DNA of 34,282 nt, from assembly GCF_030068445.1 (NCBI RefSeq), contig NZ_JAQPOK010000066.1, positions 1-34,282 on the forward strand, read 5' to 3'. Positions 1,720-31,083 of this stretch are shown piece after piece. Within the stretch, counting starts at the first letter, position 1. Every line of letters begins with the position of its first letter. The notes beneath the pieces were generated by a model. It was not told the origin of the DNA. It did no database searches and was given only the letters and a program-made list of their open reading frames with translations. The stretch comes from Roseofilum halophilum BLCC-M91 (GTDB lineage Bacteria; Cyanobacteriota; Cyanobacteriia; Cyanobacteriales; Desertifilaceae). The position numbers and the translations under genes are program-made.

Positions 1720-3642
1720 ATGACTGAACCCCAAATGAGTCCCTACGGATCTTGGAAATCTCCCATTACCTCAGACTTAATTGTGGCAGGTGCGATCGCC
1801 CTCGGCAGCCCTCGTATTGATGGAGATGACCTCTACTGGTCAGAAGGTCGCCCCAGTGAAGGAGGACGCAGTGTCATTGTCCAACGCACTCCAGACGGAC
1901 AAACCCAGGACATTACCCCCGCGTCCTACAATGTGCGAACCAGGGTTCATGAATATGGGGGAGGCTCCTATTTAATAGACGAACGAGCAGTCTATTTTGT
2001 GAATTTTGCCGATCAACAGCTCTATCGGCAACCCGTGGGCGAAGATCCCCAACCCTTGACGGGGGAAAGTCCATGCCGTTATGCTGACTTTCGCTTAGAC
2101 TCGCGCCGCAACTGTCTGATTTCTGTGCAAGAAGACCATAGCGCAGAAGGAGAACCCGTTAACCGCATTGTCAGCATTGACCTAGAAACGGGTAACCCCA
2201 CCACCCTGACTGAAGGCTATGATTTTTACGCCTGTCCCCGGTTAAGTCCCGATGGTTCCCAACTCTGCTGGATCTGCTGGAATCATCCGAATATGCCTTG
2301 GGACGGGACCCAGTTATGGGTTGCGCCGGTGAATGAGGATGGCACATTAGGCACGGCGACCTTGGTGGCGGGAAGTACGACGGAATCGATCTTTCAACCC
2401 GAATGGTCTCCGGATGGGGTATTGTATTTTGTGAGCGACTCGACCAACTGGTGGAACCTCTATCGCTGGAAGGGTAGCTCTATAGACCCGCTCTTCCCCA
2501 AAAACGCCGAGTTTGGGCTTCCCCAATGGGTCTTTGGCATGAGTACCTACACCTTTGCTGATGCAGAAACGATCATTTGCATCTATTCGGAAAAGGGGAA
2601 TGATACGCTGGCTAAAGTCAACACCCGCAGCAAAACCCTAACAGTTATTCCGACTCCCTACAGCAGTTTATCTGCTCCTCAAGTGCGCGGAAATCAGATT
2701 ATCCTGTCAGCAGCATCAGCCACCCAACCGAGCGCCTTAATTCAACTGGATATATCGGGGGAAAATCTAGAGATTATCTATAAGTCTAGCCAGCTCGAAA
2801 TTGATCCCGGTTATCTTTCCGTTCCAGAGTCCATTTCCTTCCCCACGGAAAACGGCTTAACCGCTTATGGCTTCTATTATCCGCCCCAAAATAAAGACTA
2901 TCAAGCGCCAGAAGGGGAAAAACCACCTTTATTGGTGAAAAGTCATGGAGGGCCGACAGCAGCAACATCGAGTAGATTTAATCTGAAGCTGCAATATTGG
3001 ACAAGTCGCGGCTTTGCTATCCTCGATGTCAATTATGGGGGAAGCACTGGATATGGTCGGGAGTATCGCCAACGGTTGAATGGCTCCTGGGGTATTGTGG
3101 ATGTGGATGATTGCGCCAATGGAGCCAAGTATCTGGCCGAACAGGGTAAGGTAGATGAAAATCGGTTAGCTATCTCTGGGGGAAGCGCGGGAGGATATAC
3201 GACATTATGCGCTCTGACATTCCGGGATACGTTTCAGGCGGGCGCGAGTTACTATGGAGTGAGCGATTTAGAAGCTCTAGCCACGGATACCCATAAGTTT
3301 GAATCGCGCTATTTGGATGGCTTGATCGGGCCTTATCCAGAACGTAAAGATGTTTATGTTGAGCGATCGCCCATTCATTTTACCGCACAACTTTCCTGTC
3401 CCGTCGCCTTCTTCCAAGGACTCGAAGATAAAATCGTTCCCCCCAACCAAGCGGAAATGATGGTCAATGCCTTAAAAGAAAAGGGGTTACCCGTTGCTTA
3501 TGTCACCTTTGAAGGCGAGCAACATGGTTTCCGCAAAGCGGAAAACATTAAACGCGCTCTTGATGGCGAATTTTACTTTTATTCCCGCGTCTTTGGCTAT
3601 GAGGTGGCTGACAAGGGGGGAGAAATTGAGATTGAGGGTTGA
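1720..3642 (+). CDS. S9 family peptidase (prolyl oligopeptidase/acylaminoacyl-peptidase type)
   Basis: A 640-residue serine peptidase. The first roughly 370 residues form a WD/beta-propeller-like region with repeated SPDG-type blades, which in this family screens substrates for small peptides. The C-terminal third is an alpha/beta hydrolase with nucleophile elbow GGSAGG (Ser489), acid Asp570 in LEDKIVPP and His602 in EQHGF: a complete catalytic triad. The length is normal for the family. There is no signal peptide, so it is probably cytosolic and trims or recycles peptides. The final 40 bp of the gene are repeated almost exactly 4.3 kb downstream (7935-7974), so the 3' end marks the left edge of an accessory patch. 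A second in-frame ATG at 1735 is a possible alternative start. Confidence 0.92.
   Translation: MTEPQMSPYGSWKSPITSDLIVAGAIALGSPRIDGDDLYWSEGRPSEGGRSVIVQRTPDGQTQDITPASYNVRTRVHEYGGGSYLIDERAVYFVNFADQQLYRQPVGEDPQPLTGESPCRYADFRLDSRRNCLISVQEDHSAEGEPVNRIVSIDLETGNPTTLTEGYDFYACPRLSPDGSQLCWICWNHPNMPWDGTQLWVAPVNEDGTLGTATLVAGSTTESIFQPEWSPDGVLYFVSDSTNWWNLYRWKGSSIDPLFPKNAEFGLPQWVFGMSTYTFADAETIICIYSEKGNDTLAKVNTRSKTLTVIPTPYSSLSAPQVRGNQIILSAASATQPSALIQLDISGENLEIIYKSSQLEIDPGYLSVPESISFPTENGLTAYGFYYPPQNKDYQAPEGEKPPLLVKSHGGPTAATSSRFNLKLQYWTSRGFAILDVNYGGSTGYGREYRQRLNGSWGIVDVDDCANGAKYLAEQGKVDENRLAISGGSAGGYTTLCALTFRDTFQAGASYYGVSDLEALATDTHKFESRYLDGLIGPYPERKDVYVERSPIHFTAQLSCPVAFFQGLEDKIVPPNQAEMMVNALKEKGLPVAYVTFEGEQHGFRKAENIKRALDGEFYFYSRVFGYEVADKGGEIEIEG
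3601..3640 (+). repeat. Left copy of 40-bp direct repeat flanking an accessory patch
   Basis: The last codons of the S9 peptidase gene (3601-3640) reappear at 7935-7974 in the same orientation with one difference (G at 3606, A at 7940). Sequence to either side of the copies does not match. The pair encloses the HTH/PIN pair, the zinc-ribbon genes, the CDC48 remnant and the HTH gene. Confidence 0.9.
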
Positions 3643-3669
3643 TTGGTTTTAGAATCAGACATAGCTGTA

Positions 3670-3711
3670 GGGGCGAAAAATTTTTCGCCCCCTCTCCCAC
3701 GGGAGAGGGGG
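3670..3711. repeat. Two adjacent palindromes after the S9 peptidase gene
   Basis: 3670-3691 is a perfect 22-bp palindrome (GGGGCGAAAAA and its complement). It runs into a second perfect inverted repeat, CCCCCTCTCCC / GGGAGAGGGGG, at 3688-3711. The first motif recurs between hpsB and hpsC at 22343-22368. Both are dispersed intergenic repeats of the kind common in cyanobacteria and could fold at the 3' end of the peptidase mRNA. No strong T-run follows the second one. Confidence 0.7.
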
Positions 3712-3778
3712 TTGGGGGTGAGGGCTATACTTCAGGCAAAAGAAAAAGGCTATACTACTAACTAAAATATCCTGTAGG

Positions 3779-3784
3779 TATAAT
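3779..3784 (+). promoter_or_regulatory. Candidate -10 box of the HTH/PIN operon
   Basis: A perfect TATAAT lies 59 bp upstream of the ATG at 3844. No convincing TTGACA is found 16-18 bp further up, so the call rests on the -10 hexamer and position only. Confidence 0.4.
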
Positions 3785-3843
3785 TAAAACTACGGGGTAC
3801 TTTTGGATGAAAATTTTAGTCGAGACTAATGAGGTTTAGTTGC

Positions 3844-4293
3844 ATGAAAGAACCTATTCAGCCTAGTAAGAATGATATTCGTCTGGCTGCGGAAACAGCA
3901 CAGAAACTGGCAGCTTATGCAGAAAATGAGGTTCTGAAAATCCGTATTATAGAAGAGGGATCTGACACTATCCCCGTTGAAATACCAGCACCAGCCGTCA
4001 GTTTACTGATTGATTTACTTCAAGAAATGAGCAAAGGTAATGCAGTCACGCTCATTCCCTACCATGCTCAATTGACAACCCAGAAAGCAGCAGATTTTCT
4101 CAATGTCTCCGAGCCTTTTGTGGTTGAATTATGCAATAAGGGTGAACTGCCTTACTCTCGTCTTGGCAAGCACCGAATGATTGACTTTGCTGATTTAATT
4201 GAGTTCAAACGTAAGAGTCTTGTGGAGAGTCACCAAGCTCTTGATGAACTGGCCGCTTTGCATCAGGAGATGGGTGGATACTCTATATCATGA
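3844..4293 (+). CDS. Excisionase-type HTH protein, probable antitoxin of a PIN toxin
   Basis: Encodes 149 residues from the ATG at 3844. That start is preferred over the in-frame ATG at 3829 because GAGG (3831-3834) sits about 9 nt before it as a Shine-Dalgarno site. The C-terminal half holds a MerR/excisionase-like helix-turn-helix: LTTQKAADFLNVSEPFVVEL, then GELPYSRLGKHRMI, the usual wing. The N-terminal part is helical and of unknown role. The stop codon overlaps the start of the PIN gene by 4 bp (ATGA), which implies translational coupling. Proteins of this shape next to PIN genes are annotated as antitoxins that bind their own promoter and the toxin; that role is inferred from family and context. 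Confidence 0.82.
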   Translation: MKEPIQPSKNDIRLAAETAQKLAAYAENEVLKIRIIEEGSDTIPVEIPAPAVSLLIDLLQEMSKGNAVTLIPYHAQLTTQKAADFLNVSEPFVVELCNKGELPYSRLGKHRMIDFADLIEFKRKSLVESHQALDELAALHQEMGGYSIS

Positions 4294-4877
4294 GCCAATT
4301 GATTGTTCTCTATGATGCGTGCGTCCTGTACCCAATGCCCCTGTGCGATTTGCTTTTACAGCTTGCTTTGACCGGAACGTTTCAGGCTAGATGGTCAGAT
4401 GCTATTCATGAAGAATGGATCAGAGCTGTTAAGAAGAATCGCCCTGAGATTTCTGATAGTATGATTGCTCGTAAACGTCGCGCTATGGATGCTGCGGTTA
4501 AGGACGCTCTGGTGACAAACTACGAACCGATTATTCCCAGCCTTGAGCTTCCAGATCCAGATGACCTCCATGTACTTGCGGCCGCGATCGCTGGCCATGC
4601 TGATGTTATTGTTACTTATAATCTCAAGGACTTTCCCAACGATATACTGGCTCCTTGGGGCATCCAAGCTCAACACCCAGATCAATTTATAGTTAATCTT
4701 CTGGAGTTATATCCTAGTGCGGTGTGCCGGGCTATCAAAATTGTTCGTACCCGTCTAAAGAATCCACCTATGACCCTCAATGATTACCTGGCTAATCTGG
4801 AATCTCTTAGCCTGACTGAAACGGCGGCTACTCTGAGGAACTATACATCAGATTTGACTGAAAGCGATTCAACGTAA
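4290..4877 (+). CDS. PIN-domain protein, probable VapC-like ribonuclease toxin
   Basis: A 195-residue protein with a PIN fold in the first 115 or so residues. Asp9 follows a hydrophobic strand (LIVLYDACVLYP), acidic Glu41/Glu42 lie in the next helix, Asp91/Asp92 in DPDDLHVLAAA, and the domain closes with VTYNLKDFP. This is the normal set of metal-binding acids for a Mg-dependent RNase, so it looks catalytically intact. The C-terminal 80 residues (LNDYLANLESLSLTETAATL) are typical of the longer PIN subfamily found with excisionase-like antitoxins. It overlaps the upstream HTH gene by 4 bp. RNA target unknown. Confidence 0.85.
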   Translation: MSQLIVLYDACVLYPMPLCDLLLQLALTGTFQARWSDAIHEEWIRAVKKNRPEISDSMIARKRRAMDAAVKDALVTNYEPIIPSLELPDPDDLHVLAAAIAGHADVIVTYNLKDFPNDILAPWGIQAQHPDQFIVNLLELYPSAVCRAIKIVRTRLKNPPMTLNDYLANLESLSLTETAATLRNYTSDLTESDST

Positions 4878-4897
4878 GGCGATCGCAGCGATCGCCT
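4877..4897. repeat. Palindrome of two overlapping HIP1 octamers after the PIN gene
   Basis: AGGCGATCGC and GCGATCGCCT flank a single A, giving a 21-bp inverted repeat made of two HIP1 octamers, starting at the stop codon of the PIN gene. It may fold as a hairpin between the converging PIN and zinc-ribbon genes. HIP1 is so frequent here that chance is possible. Confidence 0.5.
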
Positions 4898-4954
4898 CTT
4901 GTTGGTTATAGACACTTCCCAACCAAGCGAAAAGATGGTTACAAGTTTCCCTCG

Positions 4955-5293
4955 TTATTCCTCCTCCGTAAAGCGACTCAGAAATTCTCTCAGCCATTTT
5001 GCCCCAGCTATACTTGCGATCTGACCACCAAATGATGTCACAGATGGCATATCTAGCCGCTTGACTTCGGGAGCATTTTCTGAGAGATGCGTTTCATCTC
5101 TGATGTACCAAGTCAATGCTGATTCCTGTATCTTGCATTTCTCGCAACGAATTGTGCCATCATTTCCAATCTGAAGGGGATTTTCACATTGGAAATGTAA
5201 CCATTGGTACTGCTCTGTCGGTTCTGACCCAGGAGGATAGGCAACTAAGTCATGATATTCAACGGTTATGGGTTGATCTTGATCTGTAGACAT
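4955..5293 (-). CDS. Small zinc-ribbon-like protein, paralogue of the upstream gene
   Basis: A 112-residue protein of unrecognised family. It has a probable metal site: one Cys in WLHFQC, then CEKC about 20 residues later, followed by a region ending in GGQIASIAGAKWLREFL. The same order (Cys, IQIGDD-like turn, CxxC, then QVTSIAGRQWLIKLL) occurs in the gene immediately upstream, so the two are tandem paralogues. Only three Cys are obvious, so the fourth ligand would be a His. It starts 6 bp after the upstream stop codon with no clear Shine-Dalgarno site, suggesting coupled translation. No signal peptide. Function unknown; linkage to the CDC48 remnant suggests an adaptor or substrate-recognition role, which is inference. 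Confidence 0.7.
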   Translation of the reverse strand: MSTDQDQPITVEYHDLVAYPPGSEPTEQYQWLHFQCENPLQIGNDGTIRCEKCKIQESALTWYIRDETHLSENAPEVKRLDMPSVTSFGGQIASIAGAKWLREFLSRFTEEE

Positions 5294-5299
5294 CGTTAT

Positions 5300-5770
5300 T
5301 TACCAATCCTCTCCCATGTTTTCGAGCAGCTTGATCAGCCATTGTCTTCCAGCAATGCTTGTGACCTGACCTGCTGTAGAAATAGCACTAGCAAAGTGTG
5401 CTGGTGTAGTTTTTCTATAATCAGTGTGATAACCTTCGTGTGCATATCGTGCAACTTTTAGGTGAAAAGCCTCCCCACAACTAGCACACTTCATTTGTGC
5501 ATCGTCCCCAATCTGAATCTTACCATTACAACCAGGTTTTGAGTGATACCATTGGGAAGCCGGTCCCGGTTCCTTGTTATCAGCGAGAGCAGACTCTTGT
5601 ATATTTCCTTTGTCTTTATGTCGATCTAGGCGGGTAGCAACTGCATTGGGACTCTGCTGACCTTCAGTTACTTGTTCCAAACGTTCCAATGCACAAAGTA
5701 AGCGTTCCCATGTATCATCAGTTATCTGAAGATTAAACTGAAGTTGCTCTTGTTGTTGTCGTTGATTCAT
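5300..5770 (-). CDS. Zinc-ribbon-like hypothetical protein
   Basis: Encodes 156 residues from the ATG at 5770. That start has AGGA about 9 nt upstream and is better than the non-supported start at 5818. The N-terminal 60 residues are Gln/Glu-rich and helical, with a possible coiled coil (NQRQQQEQLQFNLQ, then ERLLCALERLEQVTE). The C-terminal half carries a candidate zinc ribbon (GCNGKIQIGDDAQMKCASC) and His residues in YAHEGYH, then the shared tail QVTSIAGRQWLIKLLENM. It resembles the next gene along its C-terminal half. It follows the CDC48 remnant by 35 bp in the same direction and is likely cotranscribed with it. I do not recognise a named family. Confidence 0.72.
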   Translation of the reverse strand: MNQRQQQEQLQFNLQITDDTWERLLCALERLEQVTEGQQSPNAVATRLDRHKDKGNIQESALADNKEPGPASQWYHSKPGCNGKIQIGDDAQMKCASCGEAFHLKVARYAHEGYHTDYRKTTPAHFASAISTAGQVTSIAGRQWLIKLLENMGEDW

Positions 5771-5805
5771 TATCTTTCGTCCTATTGAGTTAACAATTGT
5801 TGTAA

Positions 5806-6891
5806 TTAGGGCGAACAAATCGCCGCTTTACTCTCTTTTACGATTTGGGCAGCTTTCTTGAAATCATCAAGACTTGCTGTACCATTTCTCAGAGACATTC
5901 TCAAACACTCTTCACAAACATAAATGACCTCTCCACTATTTAAACCTTTCACAGCTTTTACTAAGTCCCTGTACTCTATGTCAGATCTGAAGTAGTTACC
6001 CAGTTTGGATCGGATAATCACTTCATAATCCTCCTGGGCAGGAATGGGTATATAAAGGACATGACCGAATACAGAGGGATCGAGCAAAATTTGTGGTAAA
6101 CCTTCAACTGTTCTGGCTGTAGCAATGACAAATACATTTTCATACAGCCGATTTCTTCTTATTTCATCGACTAAATCCTCCGCGAACAAAAAGCTTTCTC
6201 TTGTTTCTCTAAACTGTGTAGAGAATACTAGGTCTATTTTGTCTAGCAAAATAATAGCTGGCGCTGATAACCTAGCTTTACGAAATATCTCTCCCAGGGT
6301 TGGCAGTGAGTTATTAGGGTCTGGATGGATAAAATCCAAGCTTTTGACAGAAAGGCACTGAATATTGAGTTTAGCGGCTAGAGCTAAAGCTAAAGACTTC
6401 TTTCCAGATTGAGGAGAACCCACTAAAAGCACTCCTGTTGGTGGTGTTAATCCTATCTCTTTGAGTTGCTCTGGAGTATTAATCGGTGGCTCTATCAGAG
6501 TTAAAAGTCTATTTTTAATGCTAGTCAAGCCTAGCAGTTCATCCCATGATTTAGGATCGGACTGACTGGGTAAACCTCTTAAAGTGGTAGGCTGTAACTC
6601 TTTGAATGCTTCTGAAAAGTCTTGATTGGTGATACAAACTTCTCCAATTTGAGCATAATTTCCTGTTGGGGTAAGCTGAAACACTCGCCTTAAACAACGA
6701 ATAGCTGATTCTCTTGCCAAAGCTGCTAAATCTGCTCCAACATAACCAGAAGTTTTCTTAGCCCAGGATTGTAGATTAATGTCTGGATTTAAATCCATAC
6801 CTCTGACATATTTTTGCAAAATGTCTAGTCGATAAATCGGCTGTCTTTGGCTAAGATTACATCCCCTCCTAGGATGCGATTTTTGACACAT
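5806..6891 (-). pseudogene. CDC48-type AAA+ ATPase remnant: D1 tail plus degenerate D2 domain
   Basis: The 361-residue frame aligns by eye with p97/CDC48 from the D1 small-helical lid onward: RLDILQKYVRGMDL, then GYVGADLAALARESAIRCLRR. A full D2-like domain follows (SWDELLGLTSIKNRLLTLIEP onward). The D2 catalytic motifs are damaged. Walker A is GSPQSGKK (residues 158-165; Lys where Ser/Thr is needed). Walker B ends LLDK (Asp217-Lys218, Glu lost). Sensor 1 reads ATA instead of ATN. The arginine-finger stretch RPGR is replaced by a shorter PSVFGH. The D1 core (Walker A and B) is absent. The first 18 residues overlap the 3' end of the N-domain fragment in another frame and look non-native. ATP hydrolysis is therefore very unlikely; it could still be expressed as a scaffold. 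Confidence 0.75.
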
Positions 6892-7286
6892 TCTAAGTCT
6901 TCTTCGGTCTGGATTTTATCCTTGTTTTCACCGAGTACCTGTACTTCTAAGCTGATGGCATTTTGAATTTCATCTGTTCTCAAGGCTCTTAATTGAACCA
7001 CATCCCCCGGACTGACTAAGCAAGTATCCATCAAGGTTGGCTCTAGTCCGATCGCCCACCGATCGGTGCTAGGATTCTCCAAATGCTCGTTTTCTTCATA
7101 CCAGGCATAGCCATAAGCTATCGTACCGTTAGGAACTGATGTGATTTCCACAAAAACAGGATCGGCGCTACAAACCTGACGCAGCTTGTCCAGCAGAGAT
7201 TGAGGCAGTAAAGTGAGATTCAAACCACTGTGCTTGGGCTGATGTCCAAAAACTTTACACTCTGTTACTTTTGCCATGTTTTCCAT
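6825..7286 (-). pseudogene. CDC48-type N-domain fragment
   Basis: Encodes about 153 residues from the ATG at 7286 (AGGG about 6 nt upstream); the longer reading from a GTG at 7337 has less support. The fragment resembles the substrate/adaptor-binding N domain of CDC48. A double-psi-barrel-like part (SGLNLTLLPQSLLDKL, then VSPGDVVQLRALR) is followed by a second lobe ending ECVKNRILGGDVI. In an intact CDC48 the D1 ATPase domain would follow, but the frame stops at 6825. The next frame picks up at the D1 lid around 6840. About 500 bp encoding the D1 core therefore appear to be missing and the frame shifted at the joint. Confidence that both pieces were once one gene is good; whether they are still translated is unknown. 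Confidence 0.7.
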
Positions 7287-7458
7287 GTTTACCCTGTCTT
7301 TGGCTGCCTTTGAGCGATCGCCCCCAAAAAAAGTCACTTAGACTAAAGATAGACTGGTCGCCACTACCTATGTTAAGCTAGTTACTACTATTCAACGACT
7401 AACCGAGACTGTAACTTTTGGTTAGGATAACACTATCAACATACTTCAAACCCTGGCA

Positions 7459-7941
7459 ATGTCTAGTGATGAGATGTTTTCTGAGGCAGCAGATCGTTGG
7501 GATCTCGAACGACTGTACCGAGATTTGGCAGAAGCAAAACGACTCTGTTCCCCTCGTGCTAGAAAGGGATTGACTGAACGGGAAAAGCTTTATTTGCGCG
7601 GGTTATTGTGTGGTTGTAGTCCTAGGGAGATAGCAAAGAAACTGGTTCAAAGCGAAAAGGGGGTTGAAGTCTATGTTTGTAAAACCTTATATCCATACCT
7701 AAAACAACTCCCGGATGTACCGAGCCGGAAGATCGAGAACTGGAGAAATATCGATCACTTGCTGGAAGATGCGGGATACAAAAGGCAATCTCGATCTTCT
7801 GTAACATCTAAGACTAATTCTTCTGTACCTATTGAACCATTAGTCAAAATTGTCAATTTAGGGGTTGAACAACACACCATCTCCATTGATATCAATATCA
7901 AGTTAGCCTTACCTTCAGATGCTGAAGATGAAAAGAGGTAG
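7459..7941 (+). CDS. Helix-turn-helix protein of the cyanobacterial LuxR-like type
   Basis: A 160-residue protein divergent from the CDC48 remnant. Residues 39-85 form a LuxR/GerE-like helix-turn-helix: LTEREKLYLRGLLCG, then CSPREIAKKL as the turn, then the recognition-helix region VEVYVCKTLYPYLKQL. Similar modules occur, to my knowledge, at the N-termini of large cyanobacterial STAND/NACHT and effector-type proteins, followed by a NWRNIDHLLEDAGYK-like segment as here. In this gene the module is followed only by a polar linker and a short beta-rich tail (KIVNLGVEQHTISIDINIKL). The stop codon lies inside the right copy of the 40-bp repeat, so the original C-terminus may have been replaced. It could regulate the patch or be a stand-alone signalling part. 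Confidence 0.7.
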   Translation: MSSDEMFSEAADRWDLERLYRDLAEAKRLCSPRARKGLTEREKLYLRGLLCGCSPREIAKKLVQSEKGVEVYVCKTLYPYLKQLPDVPSRKIENWRNIDHLLEDAGYKRQSRSSVTSKTNSSVPIEPLVKIVNLGVEQHTISIDINIKLALPSDAEDEKR

Positions 7942-7974
7942 CTGACAAGGGGGGAGAAATTGAGATTGAGGGTT
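7935..7974 (+). repeat. Right copy of 40-bp direct repeat
   Basis: Matches 3601-3640 (the 3' end of the S9 peptidase gene) at 39 of 40 positions in the same orientation. The stop codon of the HTH gene (7939-7941) falls inside it. It is followed at 7975-7989 by the small inverted repeat AGAAACC-G-GGTTTCT. It marks the right edge of the accessory patch. Confidence 0.9.
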
Positions 7975-7993
7975 AGAAACCGGGTTTCTGCGT

Positions 7994-8374
7994 TCACTTT
8001 TGGTTGGGTGTCGAAGGCGATCGATTTTCTAACTCCTGAATACAAGTTTCTACTTGAGTTTTTAAGTCAGGTAATTTATCAGGATTATGGATAATATTCC
8101 AGACGGTTTCTAAATCAATTGCCCAATAATGATGAGCGAGAATATTTCTAAAGTCTGTAATATCCCGCCAAGGTACTGAAGGATACTGATTTTTTAATTC
8201 ATCAGGGAGTTTATTGGCTGCTTCACCAATAATTTCTAGTTCACGAAGTACAGCCATTTTTACTGTTCGATTGGTTAAAAAACTTTCTTTCCCGTGCTGA
8301 ATATGAATGGCGATCGCTTCAATAGATTCTTTAATGTGATAAAGAAAAAATAGAGGAGATTTTTGTTTATTCAT
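7994..8374 (-). CDS. hepT: HepT-like HEPN ribonuclease toxin
   Basis: A 126-residue HEPN protein of the MNT/HEPN toxin-antitoxin type. The signature RX4HXY is intact: Arg76, His81 and Tyr83 in FRNILAHHYW. In this family Arg and His form the RNase site and the Tyr is the residue that the partner nucleotidyltransferase AMPylates to silence the toxin. The helical repeats around it (GEAANKLPDELKNQYPSVPWRDI) are characteristic. The gene overlaps mntA by 4 bp (8371-8374) and is read after it, the usual order. The conserved motif suggests a live system. Confidence 0.9.
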   Translation of the reverse strand: MNKQKSPLFFLYHIKESIEAIAIHIQHGKESFLTNRTVKMAVLRELEIIGEAANKLPDELKNQYPSVPWRDITDFRNILAHHYWAIDLETVWNIIHNPDKLPDLKTQVETCIQELENRSPSTPNQK

Positions 8375-8658
8375 AGGGGAATTGCCGAAGATAAAACTTC
8401 CTGTTTAATGGTATGATGTAATGCTGTACTATGCACAATATCAACATCACATTTCAGCAATTCTTGTAATGCTCTTCGTAAGCGAATGACATCAAATAAA
8501 TCTTGTTCTGGGGTGGGATCGATCAGAAAATCAATGTCACTATTTTCAGTGTTTTCACCTTTAGCCACTGAACCAAATACTTTAATATTAGTAGAGTGAT
8601 ATTGTTCAGCTAATTTTATAATGTTAGAGCGGTATTGTTTTAATTGCTGTAAGTTCAT
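8371..8658 (-). CDS. mntA: MntA-like nucleotidyltransferase antitoxin
   Basis: A 95-residue minimal nucleotidyltransferase. The active-site motif GSX10DXD is complete: Gly29-Ser30, then Asp41 and Asp43 (NSDIDFLID). This enzyme class transfers AMP from ATP to a Tyr of the partner HepT toxin and so neutralises it. The ATG at 8658 has AAGG 9 nt upstream. It is the first gene of a two-gene operon with hepT. Confidence 0.9.
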   Translation of the reverse strand: MNLQQLKQYRSNIIKLAEQYHSTNIKVFGSVAKGENTENSDIDFLIDPTPEQDLFDVIRLRRALQELLKCDVDIVHSTALHHTIKQEVLSSAIPL

Positions 8659-8780
8659 GGTGAATTACCTTGATGGATTTGGTCAGTTAATCAAATTGTA
8701 GCAGATTTGCTTTTATACTGTCGGGTGTGTTTTTGTAAATAATGCCATCATCTATTCTTAACATTCAACACTTCTGCCTA

Positions 8781-8835
8781 TTACCCATTACCTATTACCG
8801 CGCGTTTCATGTCTGCGAAGCAGAAAGCGCTATAA
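8781..8835 (-). repeat. Head-plus-tail repeat with GCGC head and GGTAATGG tail
   Basis: On the minus strand this reads TATAGCGCTTT, a small hairpin (TCTGC-GAA-GCAGA), AAACGCGC, then three or so GGTAATGG-type units. The hairpin core (8805-8826 on plus) recurs at 29235-29255 in the other orientation with a compensating base-pair change. It fills much of the 225-bp gap between mntA and the polyphosphate gene, where no gene is seen. Confidence 0.6.
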
Positions 8836-8883
8836 TTTCAATTAAAAAGTTGAAATTTTGATACCTTGCCCAATCTGTAAACG

Positions 8884-10368
8884 TTAATGTCTCAAACCGA
8901 GTTCGATCGCCTCAATCACCGATTCTAATACCTTGACTCGCGCATAGAGCTTATCGTTGCCAGCGACCACTGTCCAAGGAGCATTGGGGGTATGGGTGCG
9001 GCCAATGGTCTGATTGACTGCGACTTCGTATAATCCCCATTTTTCTCGGTTACGCCAATCTTCATCGGTTAATTTATAGCGCTTAAAGGGGTCATCCTGA
9101 CGGGACTCAAATCGCCTTAACTGTTCTTCTGGACTCACATGGAGCCAAAATTTAACTAAAACATACCCAGCATTGGTGAGCATGGCTTCAAATTCATTAA
9201 TTTCCCGATAGGCCCTGCGCCATTGGGTATCGGTGGCAAAGCCTTCAATGCGTTCGACTAAGACGCGACCATACCAGGTGCGGTCAAAAATACCAATTTT
9301 GCCGGCCGTGGGTAAATCCCGCCAAAACCGCCACAGATAATGATGCATTTTTTCCTCTGCGCTGGGTGCAGAAAATGCTCTCACTTCATAACTGCGAGGG
9401 TCTAGATTATTGGTGAGGCGTTTAATGGCTCCTCCTTTTCCGGCGGCATCCCATCCTTCAAACAGGGCTAATACGGGCAATTTAGCCTTAAAAATCTTCA
9501 GTTGCAATTCCTGTAATCTGACTTGGGCTTTTTTCAGCCGTTTCTTATACTCTTTCTTGGATAAAGATGCACTCAGATCGACCCGCGCTAGAAAATCGGG
9601 TTCTGTGGGTTCTAATTGCTCTTGGGGAGGTAAGGGAGCGGGAATGAGCTGGCTTTGGCGACGGTCTAGGGCTTCTCGCAGGGTAGCGGCGACGGTTTGT
9701 AAGACTTTGACTTGGGCCCAGCGTTGACAGTTGCCTTCGACTAATGTCCAGGGGGCAAACCCGGTGCTGGTTTGAACGATCATTTCTTCTGCCAGCATCC
9801 GATAGTTGTGATACCGTTTTACCTGCTGCCAATCTTCTTCCCTGACTCGCCAAGCATTGAGCCGGTCTTTGGCATAGGCTTTAAGCCGTTGTTTGAGTTC
9901 TTTTTTACTCAGATGAATCCAAAATTTGGCGATCGCACAGCCATCATCGCTCATTTGCCGCTCAAAGGCATTAATATGGCGCATTAGGGCGGGGACTTGG
10001 GATTCTTGGACGCGATCGAATAGCCGGTCTTCGAGGACATGGGTATACCAACTATGGTAAAACAGGCCAATGCTGCCGTAGTGGGGAATTTTGTGCCAAA
10101 ATCGCCAGAGGAAAGGATAGTTTCTTTCTTCGGCATTGGGGGGCCAAATGGGATGGACTGCAAATCCTCTAGGGTCCATATAACCGATCACTTTTTTGAC
10201 CAGAGGGCCTTTACCGGCCGCTGCCCAGCCTTCTAGCACGATGATCATAGGTAATTTTTTTTCCCAACAGGCATGTTGAAGCGATCGCAACTGTTGCATC
10301 AGATCTTCTATTTCTGTTTTGTAGCGGTGCTTGTCGAGAGACCGATCCAGATTCAGTTGCTTGAGCAT
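8884..10368 (-). CDS. pap: Polyphosphate:AMP phosphotransferase (two-domain PPK2)
   Basis: A 494-residue protein with two fused PPK2 domains. The N-terminal domain has Walker A EGWAAAGKG (Lys53) and DPRGFAV. The C-terminal domain has EGWDAAGKGG (Lys311), DPRSYEV, the lid-like WRFWRDLP and FDRTWYGRVLVERIEGF. Two-domain PPK2 proteins are class II enzymes that phosphorylate AMP to ADP from polyphosphate; in characterised members the C-terminal half is the active one, which fits the more canonical motif there. It should link polyphosphate stores to adenylate charge in the cytosol. Transcribed alone; length is normal for the class. Confidence 0.92.
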   Translation of the reverse strand: MLKQLNLDRSLDKHRYKTEIEDLMQQLRSLQHACWEKKLPMIIVLEGWAAAGKGPLVKKVIGYMDPRGFAVHPIWPPNAEERNYPFLWRFWHKIPHYGSIGLFYHSWYTHVLEDRLFDRVQESQVPALMRHINAFERQMSDDGCAIAKFWIHLSKKELKQRLKAYAKDRLNAWRVREEDWQQVKRYHNYRMLAEEMIVQTSTGFAPWTLVEGNCQRWAQVKVLQTVAATLREALDRRQSQLIPAPLPPQEQLEPTEPDFLARVDLSASLSKKEYKKRLKKAQVRLQELQLKIFKAKLPVLALFEGWDAAGKGGAIKRLTNNLDPRSYEVRAFSAPSAEEKMHHYLWRFWRDLPTAGKIGIFDRTWYGRVLVERIEGFATDTQWRRAYREINEFEAMLTNAGYVLVKFWLHVSPEEQLRRFESRQDDPFKRYKLTDEDWRNREKWGLYEVAVNQTIGRTHTPNAPWTVVAGNDKLYARVKVLESVIEAIELGLRH

Positions 10369-29378: not shown

Positions 29379-29615
29379 TTAATAGTGGTTGAGGTTGATG
29401 CCAGCTTGTTTGGCCATGGCTTGGATGCCTTTGGTTTCTAGGGTTTTGATGGCTTTGGTGGAGAGTTTGAGTTTGACCCAACGGTTGCCTTCGGGCCACC
29501 AGACGCGCTTGCTCTGAAGGTTGACTTCTTGGCGTTTTTTGGTTCGTCTGTGGGAGTGGGAGATGGCGAAGCCGTTGTTGGCTTTTTTCTTTGTGAGTTG
29601 ACAGGTGCGGGACAT
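29379..29615 (-). CDS. rpmB: 50S ribosomal protein L28
   Basis: A 78-residue protein starting [20 protein letters not shown], with [20 protein letters not shown] and the ending [19 protein letters not shown]: a normal-length bacterial L28. It is a basic large-subunit protein. It is monocistronic; its upstream region runs at once into the large minisatellite at 29665-30289, leaving about 50 bp for a promoter before the repeats begin. Confidence 0.96.
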
Positions 29616-29650
29616 GGGTTACCTCTTTTTTTGCTGCAATCTCTTATTGT

Positions 29651-30099
29651 AGCGCTACGCGCTGGTAATGGGGAATGGGTAATGGGTAATGGGGAATGGG
29701 TAATGGGTGATGGGTGATGGGTAATGGGTGATGGGTGATGGGTGATGGGTGATGGGGAACGGGTGATGGGGAACGGGTGATGGGGAATGGGTGATGGGTG
29801 ATGGGGAACGGGTGATGGGTGATGGGTGATGGGTGATGGGGAACGGGTGATGGGTGATGGGTGATGGGTGATGGGGAACGGGTGATGGGGAATGGGTGAT
29901 GGGGAATTGGTGATGGGTAATGGGGAATTGGTGATGGGTGATGGGTGATGGGGAATTGGTGATGGGTAATGGGGAATTGGTGATGGGGAATTGGTGATGG
30001 GTGATGGGGAATTGGTGATGGGTAATGGGGAATTGGTGATGGGGAATTGGTGATGGGTGATGGGGAATTGGTGATGGGGAATTGGTGATGGGGAGTTGG
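29651..30099 (+). repeat. Large G-rich minisatellite (GGGTGATG / GGGGAATTGGTGATG units)
   Basis: After a GTAGCGCTACGCGC head, about 435 bp consist of variants of GGTAATGG, GGTGATGG, GGGGAACGGGTGATG and GGGGAATTGGTGATG. Frames across it (for example Ser-Pro-Ile-Thr-His repeats) are artefacts of the repeat. Runs such as GGGTGATGGGTGATGGGTGA have four closely spaced G3 tracts and meet the usual G-quadruplex pattern. Confidence 0.9.
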
Positions 30100-30123
30100 T
30101 CAACAAGCGAGCAAGATGCTCGC

Positions 30124-30289
30124 ATTCCCTCCATTCCTCCATTACCTCCATTCCTCCATTCCTCCATTCCCTCCATTCCTCCATTCCTTCATTCCCTCCA
30201 TTCCCCCCATTCCCCCCATTCCCCCATTCCTCCATTCCCCCATTCCCCCATTCCCCCATTCCCCCATTCCCCCATTCCCCTATTCTTCC
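30124..30289 (+). repeat. C-rich minisatellite (CCATTCCCC / CCATTCCT units)
   Basis: About 165 bp of CCATTCCTCC- and CCATTCCCC-type units, directly after the hairpin GCGAGCA-AGA-TGCTCGC at 30107-30123. Its complement (GGGGAATGG) is close to the units of the array to the left, so the two arrays form an imperfect giant inverted repeat. It runs up to and over the stop codon of the TPR gene (30280-30282). Confidence 0.9.
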
Positions 30290-31083
30290 TGGTTCATGAG
30301 GCGATTGATTTCGTCTTTGTATTCGGGGGGGGCGAGGGTGGTGGCGTTGGCGAAGAGGGGTTTGGCTTGGTCGGGTTTGCCTTGGCGTTGGAGGACGATC
30401 GCCTTTCCGAGCAGTGGACGAAAGTCGGTTTCATTTTCTTCGATGGCTCGATCGTAGACGGCGATCGCTTCTTCATACCTTTCTAAGTCGGCATAGACGC
30501 GCCCTAACAGGAGTTTAACGGAGGCTGTATCGATGGTTCCGGCTTGGGTTTCGTTGGCTGCGGTGGCTTTTTGCAGGGTTTCTTCTAATACCCCGATCGC
30601 CGCTTGGGGATTTTTTTGCTGGAGTTGCAGGTCAACTAACCCTTGCAGGGCGGTCATTTCTCCGGGGTTTTGGCTTAAAACTTGCCGATAGATCTGTGCG
30701 GCACTGTCGGGATGTCCAGTGTAATTCTTGGCTTCTGCTAACAGGACGTGATACTGGACATCTTGGGGGTTGAGTTGGACTAATTTTTCTAAGGGGGCGA
30801 TCGCTCCTGGAATATCCCGTAATTCTAACCGTACATCCAACAATCCCCTCAACACGCTTTGATTTTCCGGTTCCCGCTCCAAAACCAACTCATAGCCGCG
30901 TTCCTGAGCTTCTAATTTTGCTTGACGAGAGGTTAATGTTGGAGTCGGGGAAGCCTCAGAACTGGCCGAACTGGAGGCACGAAAGGCTTCTGTGATCGGG
31001 GGAATGGTTGAAACCCCCAACAGGGCGACAACCGCTAAAATCAAAATGGCATTGATTACCCAACTACTACGCTTAATCGTCAC
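30280..31083 (-). CDS. Membrane-anchored tetratricopeptide-repeat protein
   Basis: A 267-residue protein. One N-terminal membrane segment (WVINAILILAVVALLGVS, about residues 8-25) anchors it, followed by a Ser/Thr/Ala linker and four to five TPR units. Examples are ALLDVRLELRDIPGAIAPLE, then LAEAKNYTGHPDSAAQIYRQ, and EEAIAVYDRAIEENETDFRP. TPRs mediate protein-protein contact. Small anchored TPR proteins include photosystem assembly factors such as Ycf37, but this one is longer and I do not assign it. The start codon is GTG at 31083 with AGGA 7 nt upstream. Both flanks carry GGGGAATGG-type tandem repeats in inverted orientation. Confidence 0.82.
   Translation of the reverse strand: MTIKRSSWVINAILILAVVALLGVSTIPPITEAFRASSSASSEASPTPTLTSRQAKLEAQERGYELVLEREPENQSVLRGLLDVRLELRDIPGAIAPLEKLVQLNPQDVQYHVLLAEAKNYTGHPDSAAQIYRQVLSQNPGEMTALQGLVDLQLQQKNPQAAIGVLEETLQKATAANETQAGTIDTASVKLLLGRVYADLERYEEAIAVYDRAIEENETDFRPLLGKAIVLQRQGKPDQAKPLFANATTLAPPEYKDEINRLMNQEE

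Follow-up and report, generated by a model that had tools for sequence, protein, structure and literature searches.

The accessory genes behind the S9-type peptidase gene of the window (the whole 34,282-nt stretch of DNA that was analysed) were probably added by homologous recombination within S9 combined with an illegitimate join, by which the old S9 tail would have been shunted downstream; we give this reading a probability of about 0.6. It is based on an anatomy in which an intact anchor gene is followed by cargo and, beyond the cargo, by a truncated copy of the 3′ end of that gene. This anatomy was found in the genome of the window (G000), where the truncated copy is short, and in one congener (G002), where it is long and the two copies lie on separate contigs. 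Second truncated S9 copies are present in two of the six genomes of the genus. The five congeners (G001–G005) are among the 59 genomes in which S9 was searched, G000 included; the G000 assembly is a draft of 169 contigs. Among named relatives in the records searched, from which this genome and very close ones may be missing, S9 identity reaches no more than 68%.

Features of the S9 locus, with coordinates in the window
Feature	Position	Strand	Remarks
S9-type peptidase gene, intact, 640 codons	1720..3642	+	match in 59 of 59 genomes searched, the matches not all being orthologues
Repeat copy 1, S9 gene end	3601..3640	+	39/40 identity to copy 2
Spacer A	3641..3775		common to G004 and G005 behind S9; contains pieces dispersed in 5 of 6 congeneric genomes
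HTH_17 antitoxin-like gene	3829..4293	+	Pfam; alternative inner ATG at 3844
PIN_3 toxin-like gene	4290..4877	+	Pfam
Zinc-ribbon-like gene	4955..5293	-	CxxC motifs by eye; similar gene in G004
Zinc-ribbon-like ORF	5300..5818	-	fusion, by eye, across 947-bp deletion relative to G004
Broken CDC48-type AAA gene, C-terminal part	5806..6891	-	Pfam; intact 733-aa counterpart in G004
Broken CDC48-type AAA gene, N-terminal part	6825..7337	-	junction with C-terminal part at 670-bp deletion near 6832
HTH gene, GerE-like	7459..7941	+	last codon and stop from S9-derived sequence
Second S9 3′ end stump and spacer B	7935..8020	+	same arrangement behind S9 in G001
Repeat copy 2	7935..7974	+	39/40 identity to copy 1
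HepT-like gene	7994..8374	-	HepT-like, 5.1e-27; last codons read into spacer B
Nucleotidyltransferase (MNT) gene, HepT partner	8371..8658	-	Polbeta, 4.5e-13
Rearrangement point between HepT/MNT pair and PPK2 gene	8715..8889		contains piece dispersed in own genome

A second S9 gene end with its own spacer

The 40-bp direct repeat claimed by an earlier, sequence-only reading of this DNA was confirmed. Its two copies have the same orientation and a start-to-start spacing of 4334, and their identity to one another extends beyond 40 bp neither to the left nor to the right; about 6e-14 such pairs would be expected by chance in a window of this length if equal base frequencies are assumed. The repeat had been described as the last 40 bp of the S9 gene. 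It does lie at the S9 end, but the gene runs to 3642 and copy 1 hence terminates within the stop codon. The first bases of copy 2, GAG, are present at the same point in the HTH gene of G002, so that only some 37 bp of copy 2 need be S9-derived. A census of a 32-base core in 12 genomes, allowing up to 3 mismatches, gave two sites in G000, one in G001, where it is the end of the S9 gene, and none in the other 10 genomes. The S9 tails of G004 and G005 diverge beyond what this search admitted; over its first 33 bases copy 2 is 94% identical to them. The idea that the 40-bp sequence, which is specific to S9 gene ends, might be a repeat dispersed at many unrelated sites was rejected. None of the relatives shows both 40-bp copies.

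Beyond the repeat, copy 1 is followed by spacer A, which also stands behind S9 in G004 and G005, and copy 2 by spacer B, as in G001 and loosely in G002; both spacers hold pieces that are dispersed in the genus. The flanks of the two copies had been called unrelated, which is correct insofar as the copies share no further identity, but the sequence to the right of copy 2 is the S9 downstream spacer of G001. Window positions 7935–8023 are identical to the S9 end and downstream spacer of G001 at 86 of 89 positions, and the match to the G002 spacer is looser (81% over a 75-column alignment). Since the match to G001 extends beyond the 40 bp, copy 2 can be recognised as the relic of a second S9 3′ end. 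The closeness to G001 only suggests relatedness, as the probability of three or fewer mismatches in 89 is 0.004 if the whole-gene rate applies and 0.07 if the rate close to the gene end does. On either side the stump ends in a join inside a gene, with a few shared bases: the final codons of the HTH gene are joined to the second S9 end, and those of the HepT gene to spacer B. This stretch represents a piece of another S9 end region rather than one of a matched pair of attachment sites.

Contents of the patch and the congeneric loci

The accessory character that had been ascribed to the interval between the copies is borne out, and its set of toxin–antitoxin and defence-like genes varies between congeners. 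As to the contents themselves, the HTH_17/PIN_3 pair, the broken CDC48-type AAA gene and the HTH gene were recovered. Neither zinc-ribbon-like gene has a Pfam match, the label being given by eye from CxxC motifs, and the GerE match of the HTH gene (22.6 bits) falls just under the Pfam cut-off of 23.5. Relative to G004, and net of alignment overlap, the window has lost 947 bp between the zinc-ribbon genes and, within the CDC48-type gene, another 670 bp; the latter loss disrupts the frame and leaves pieces of 361 and 170 aa of what is a 733-aa protein in G004. The proposal that no integrase gene is present agrees with a Pfam scan of seven patch ORFs of the window, four patch proteins of G004 and six proteins of the G002 contig, in which no recombinase was recognised; the G004 and G002 proteins were a subset of their ORFs, and three proteins of the window, two of G004 and none of G002 lacked any Pfam match. 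No tRNA or tmRNA that could serve as an integration target was found in the window.

The six genomes differ in what follows S9. In G004, spacer A is followed by a different toxin–antitoxin pair, zinc-ribbon genes, the intact CDC48-type gene and the HTH gene; a second S9 copy is absent and the sequence beyond the HTH gene is unrelated. Relatives with the same genes but no second repeat copy had been named as evidence against an insertion, and G004 is such a relative in part: it has the zinc-ribbon, CDC48-type and HTH genes without copy 2, but its toxin–antitoxin pair differs. In G005, S9 and spacer A are followed by the HepT/MNT pair. Neither spacer was found behind S9 in G003, where S9 lies only about 450 bases from a contig end. 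The sequence-only reading had further proposed that an empty site, with S9 directly before the sequence beyond the repeat, would confirm an insertion. This order does exist in G001, but there the similarity runs out at 8023 and gives way to another toxin–antitoxin pair, so that G001 is not a clean empty site and spacer B may not be an undisturbed flank. In the stretches retrieved, the congeneric sequences upstream of S9 cease to be similar no farther than about 75 bp from the start codon.

The G002 locus is spread over three contigs. One of them carries the HepT/MNT pair, remnants of the toxin–antitoxin pair of the window, a ubiquitin-like set (ThiF/E1, E2, a small protein with a sub-threshold YukD match, and JAB) and the HTH gene; a truncated S9 copy starts no more than 7 bases past the HTH stop, at codon 454, and extends 347 bp to the contig end, so that its length is at least 347 bp. 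The intact S9 (codons 1–568) stops at the end of a second contig, and a third opens with an S9 tail (codons 563–639) and a B-like spacer. The same 22 bases are common to all three contigs, and either S9 copy could run into this tail and spacer. The truncated and intact copies differ at 22 of 339 bases, with 14 synonymous and 6 nonsynonymous codons among 113; no simulation, out of 5000 run under each of two mutation models, gave so few nonsynonymous codons. A similar ratio is found in pairs of intact S9 genes (for example, 19 synonymous and 6 nonsynonymous codons between G001 and G002). This mostly synonymous divergence implies that the G002 copy diverged as part of a working gene, and it would fit an allele that was brought in or displaced by recombination. 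In a tree of 341 bp the truncated copy groups with the intact S9 of G002 itself (support 0.74), and the events in G000 and G002 may therefore be separate.

Origin of the arrangement

From this anatomy we infer a source of the DNA and an order of events. Incoming DNA from a relative, made up of the 3′ part of S9, its spacer and cargo, would have recombined homologously within the resident S9, and an illegitimate join would have linked the far end of the cargo to the resident S9 tail, whether directly or by way of trimming, circularisation and a single crossover. In this way the intact S9 would gain a new downstream region, and the old tail with its own spacer would end up beyond the cargo. Later deletions would then erode the block and may have shortened the stump; a site-specific recombinase would be unnecessary. 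In G000 the cargo is joined to the anchor within the last part of the HTH gene, in G002 just past it. As some 37 bp are too short for a crossover region, G000 would need either later trimming or a direct illegitimate join: the short stump may be explained by loss of most of a longer S9 copy through the same kind of deletion as is seen in the patch, and a stump that was short from the start is also conceivable. Comparison of identity between G000 and the congeners in 120-nt steps gave no clean switch point within S9. No donor was found for DNA that may have been imported; the synonymous-biased divergence was seen in G002.

The direct orientation of the copies, the truncated second copies in the genus, the deletions in the patch and the grouping of the G002 copy with the gene of its own genome would all be expected had the S9 3′ region been duplicated in place, in a tandem (segmental) duplication whose second copy then decayed without any import of DNA. 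The different downstream spacers of the two copies mean that a plain tandem duplication does not fit, and the prevalence of synonymous changes in the G002 copy is unlike that of a decaying duplicate. We regard such an origin as unlikely; a remnant of tandem duplication and decay, which the sequence-only reading had offered as its alternative, nonetheless comes closer to the data than the attachment-site integration that it had put forward. According to the latter, a 4.3-kb element was integrated site-specifically at the S9 3′ end by a recombinase supplied elsewhere, and the 40 bp are att sites. Genomic islands placed by integrases at gene 3′ ends are flanked by direct repeats of the gene end. 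One study reportedly treats islands at ssrA (PMC3146451). The S9 locus resembles such islands in that its accessory genes lie between direct repeats of a gene end, and the position of S9 directly before spacer B in G001 is also in keeping with integration. It departs from them in that no recombinase was recognised in the patch proteins scanned, in that the extent of the repeat is not constant between species (about 37–40 bp in G000, at least 347 bp in G002, none in G004), and in that most of the cargo is present in G004 without a second copy. The start of the G002 copy at codon 454 leaves no fixed 40-bp core, and the HTH gene reads into copy 2 and ends there. Integration of the att type is thus not supported and we hold it to be very improbable. 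The locus shows how a gene end can come to be repeated in att-like fashion with no recombinase involved, and a few congeners suffice to separate the cases.

The joins with a few shared bases that bound the stump inside genes on both sides would also be left if a break between the HTH and HepT genes had been repaired with an 86-bp piece of S9 end and spacer as copied-in filler. Such a repair, for which we see only a small chance, does not predict what is found in G002, where a longer S9 piece of like orientation follows the same HTH gene. An assembly error at the repeat could be suspected in a draft of so many contigs, but the order of HTH gene and S9 3′ piece recurs in another assembly, that of G002, and 40 bases are normally shorter than a sequencing read; an error of this kind is hardly credible.

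The favoured origin, recombination within S9 with an illegitimate join, has parallels in published work on other systems. Homology-facilitated illegitimate recombination is reported for naturally competent species (PMC3240628), and in E. coli a partial lacZ duplication, attributed to single crossover by a trimmed circle, was described for 56 of 60 clones, with 109–950 bp of the lacZ 3′ end duplicated in the 14 clones sequenced (PMC3240628). The S9 locus shares with this additive integration the intact gene, the foreign DNA and the truncated 3′ copy, with one homologous and one illegitimate join; it differs in that the stump of G000 is shorter, at about 37 bp, and in that the process here is deduced from anatomy alone. 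At rhs loci, incoming ends were proposed to displace old ones (PMC2935791), and old gene ends pushed downstream persist there, as here, as dissociated fragments. S9 is not an rhs gene, however, and its coding end hardly changes, the downstream cargo being what does. Among the titles and abstract openings of the literature searched, no description of this S9 locus was apparent. The locus most likely represents ordinary genome turnover and not a new kind of element.

Neighbouring modules and wider searches

A broader, tentative reading is that the S9 3′ end might be a recurrent, integrase-free entry point in the genus, at which successive rounds of recombination within S9 import toxin–antitoxin and conflict modules from sister species, displaced tails form the record and the HTH regulator is kept while its divergent operon is swapped. 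If this were true, displaced gene tails could reveal integrase-free hot spots that are missed by mobile-element finders. When 105 S9 loci from outside the genus were searched by tblastn with 16 cargo proteins, the single match was to the HTH protein, some 5 kb upstream of S9; these loci comprise 102 different S9 sequences, with at least 1 kb of downstream sequence in 92 and at least 3 kb in 59, so that cargo lying far off or strongly diverged may have escaped the search.

The HTH gene and its upstream region (window 7331–7941; L036 6787–7421; L032 7686–8293; L254–L262) are kept where the divergent operon is swapped, this being the CDC48/zinc-ribbon genes in G000 and G004 and the ubiquitin-like set in G002. 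At nine further HTH loci, a non-random sample picked from the best matches, the divergent neighbours were ThiF/E1 (two, one by tblastn only), dynamin-like (three), AAA (two), kinase-RDD (one) and KAP NTPase (one). No phage match was obtained for the HTH protein, whose single plasmid match is to a portion of an NB-ARC protein. The CDC48-type protein matched 3050 plasmid records, with less than 60% identity at the best place in each.

To the right of the stump, the adjacent HepT-like and MNT genes form a predicted HepT–MNT toxin–antitoxin pair. This module and its flank are 97% identical between G005 (L031 12622–13638) and G002 (L036 420–1440) over 1021 bp, compared with about 87% for S9, which suggests a recent exchange. 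A stretch to the left of PPK2 is common to G001, G002 and G005 and is not shared by G003 and G004; G000 has it on a different contig. The patch is thus itself rearranged on its right side, and the downstream flank through PPK2 cannot serve as an empty-site test. In G000 this stretch (cf. window 8884–10368) corresponds to positions 52589–55627 of contig C109 and is 98% identical to G005, compared with about 91% for S9. A repeat piece to the left of PPK2 (8777–8846) is found at many other places in G000 and in the congeners. Further downstream, positions 29438–30486 of the window hold overlapping Pro/Ser-rich ORFs on both strands with short repeated motifs, as seen by eye, and are probably a repetitive stretch rather than genes.
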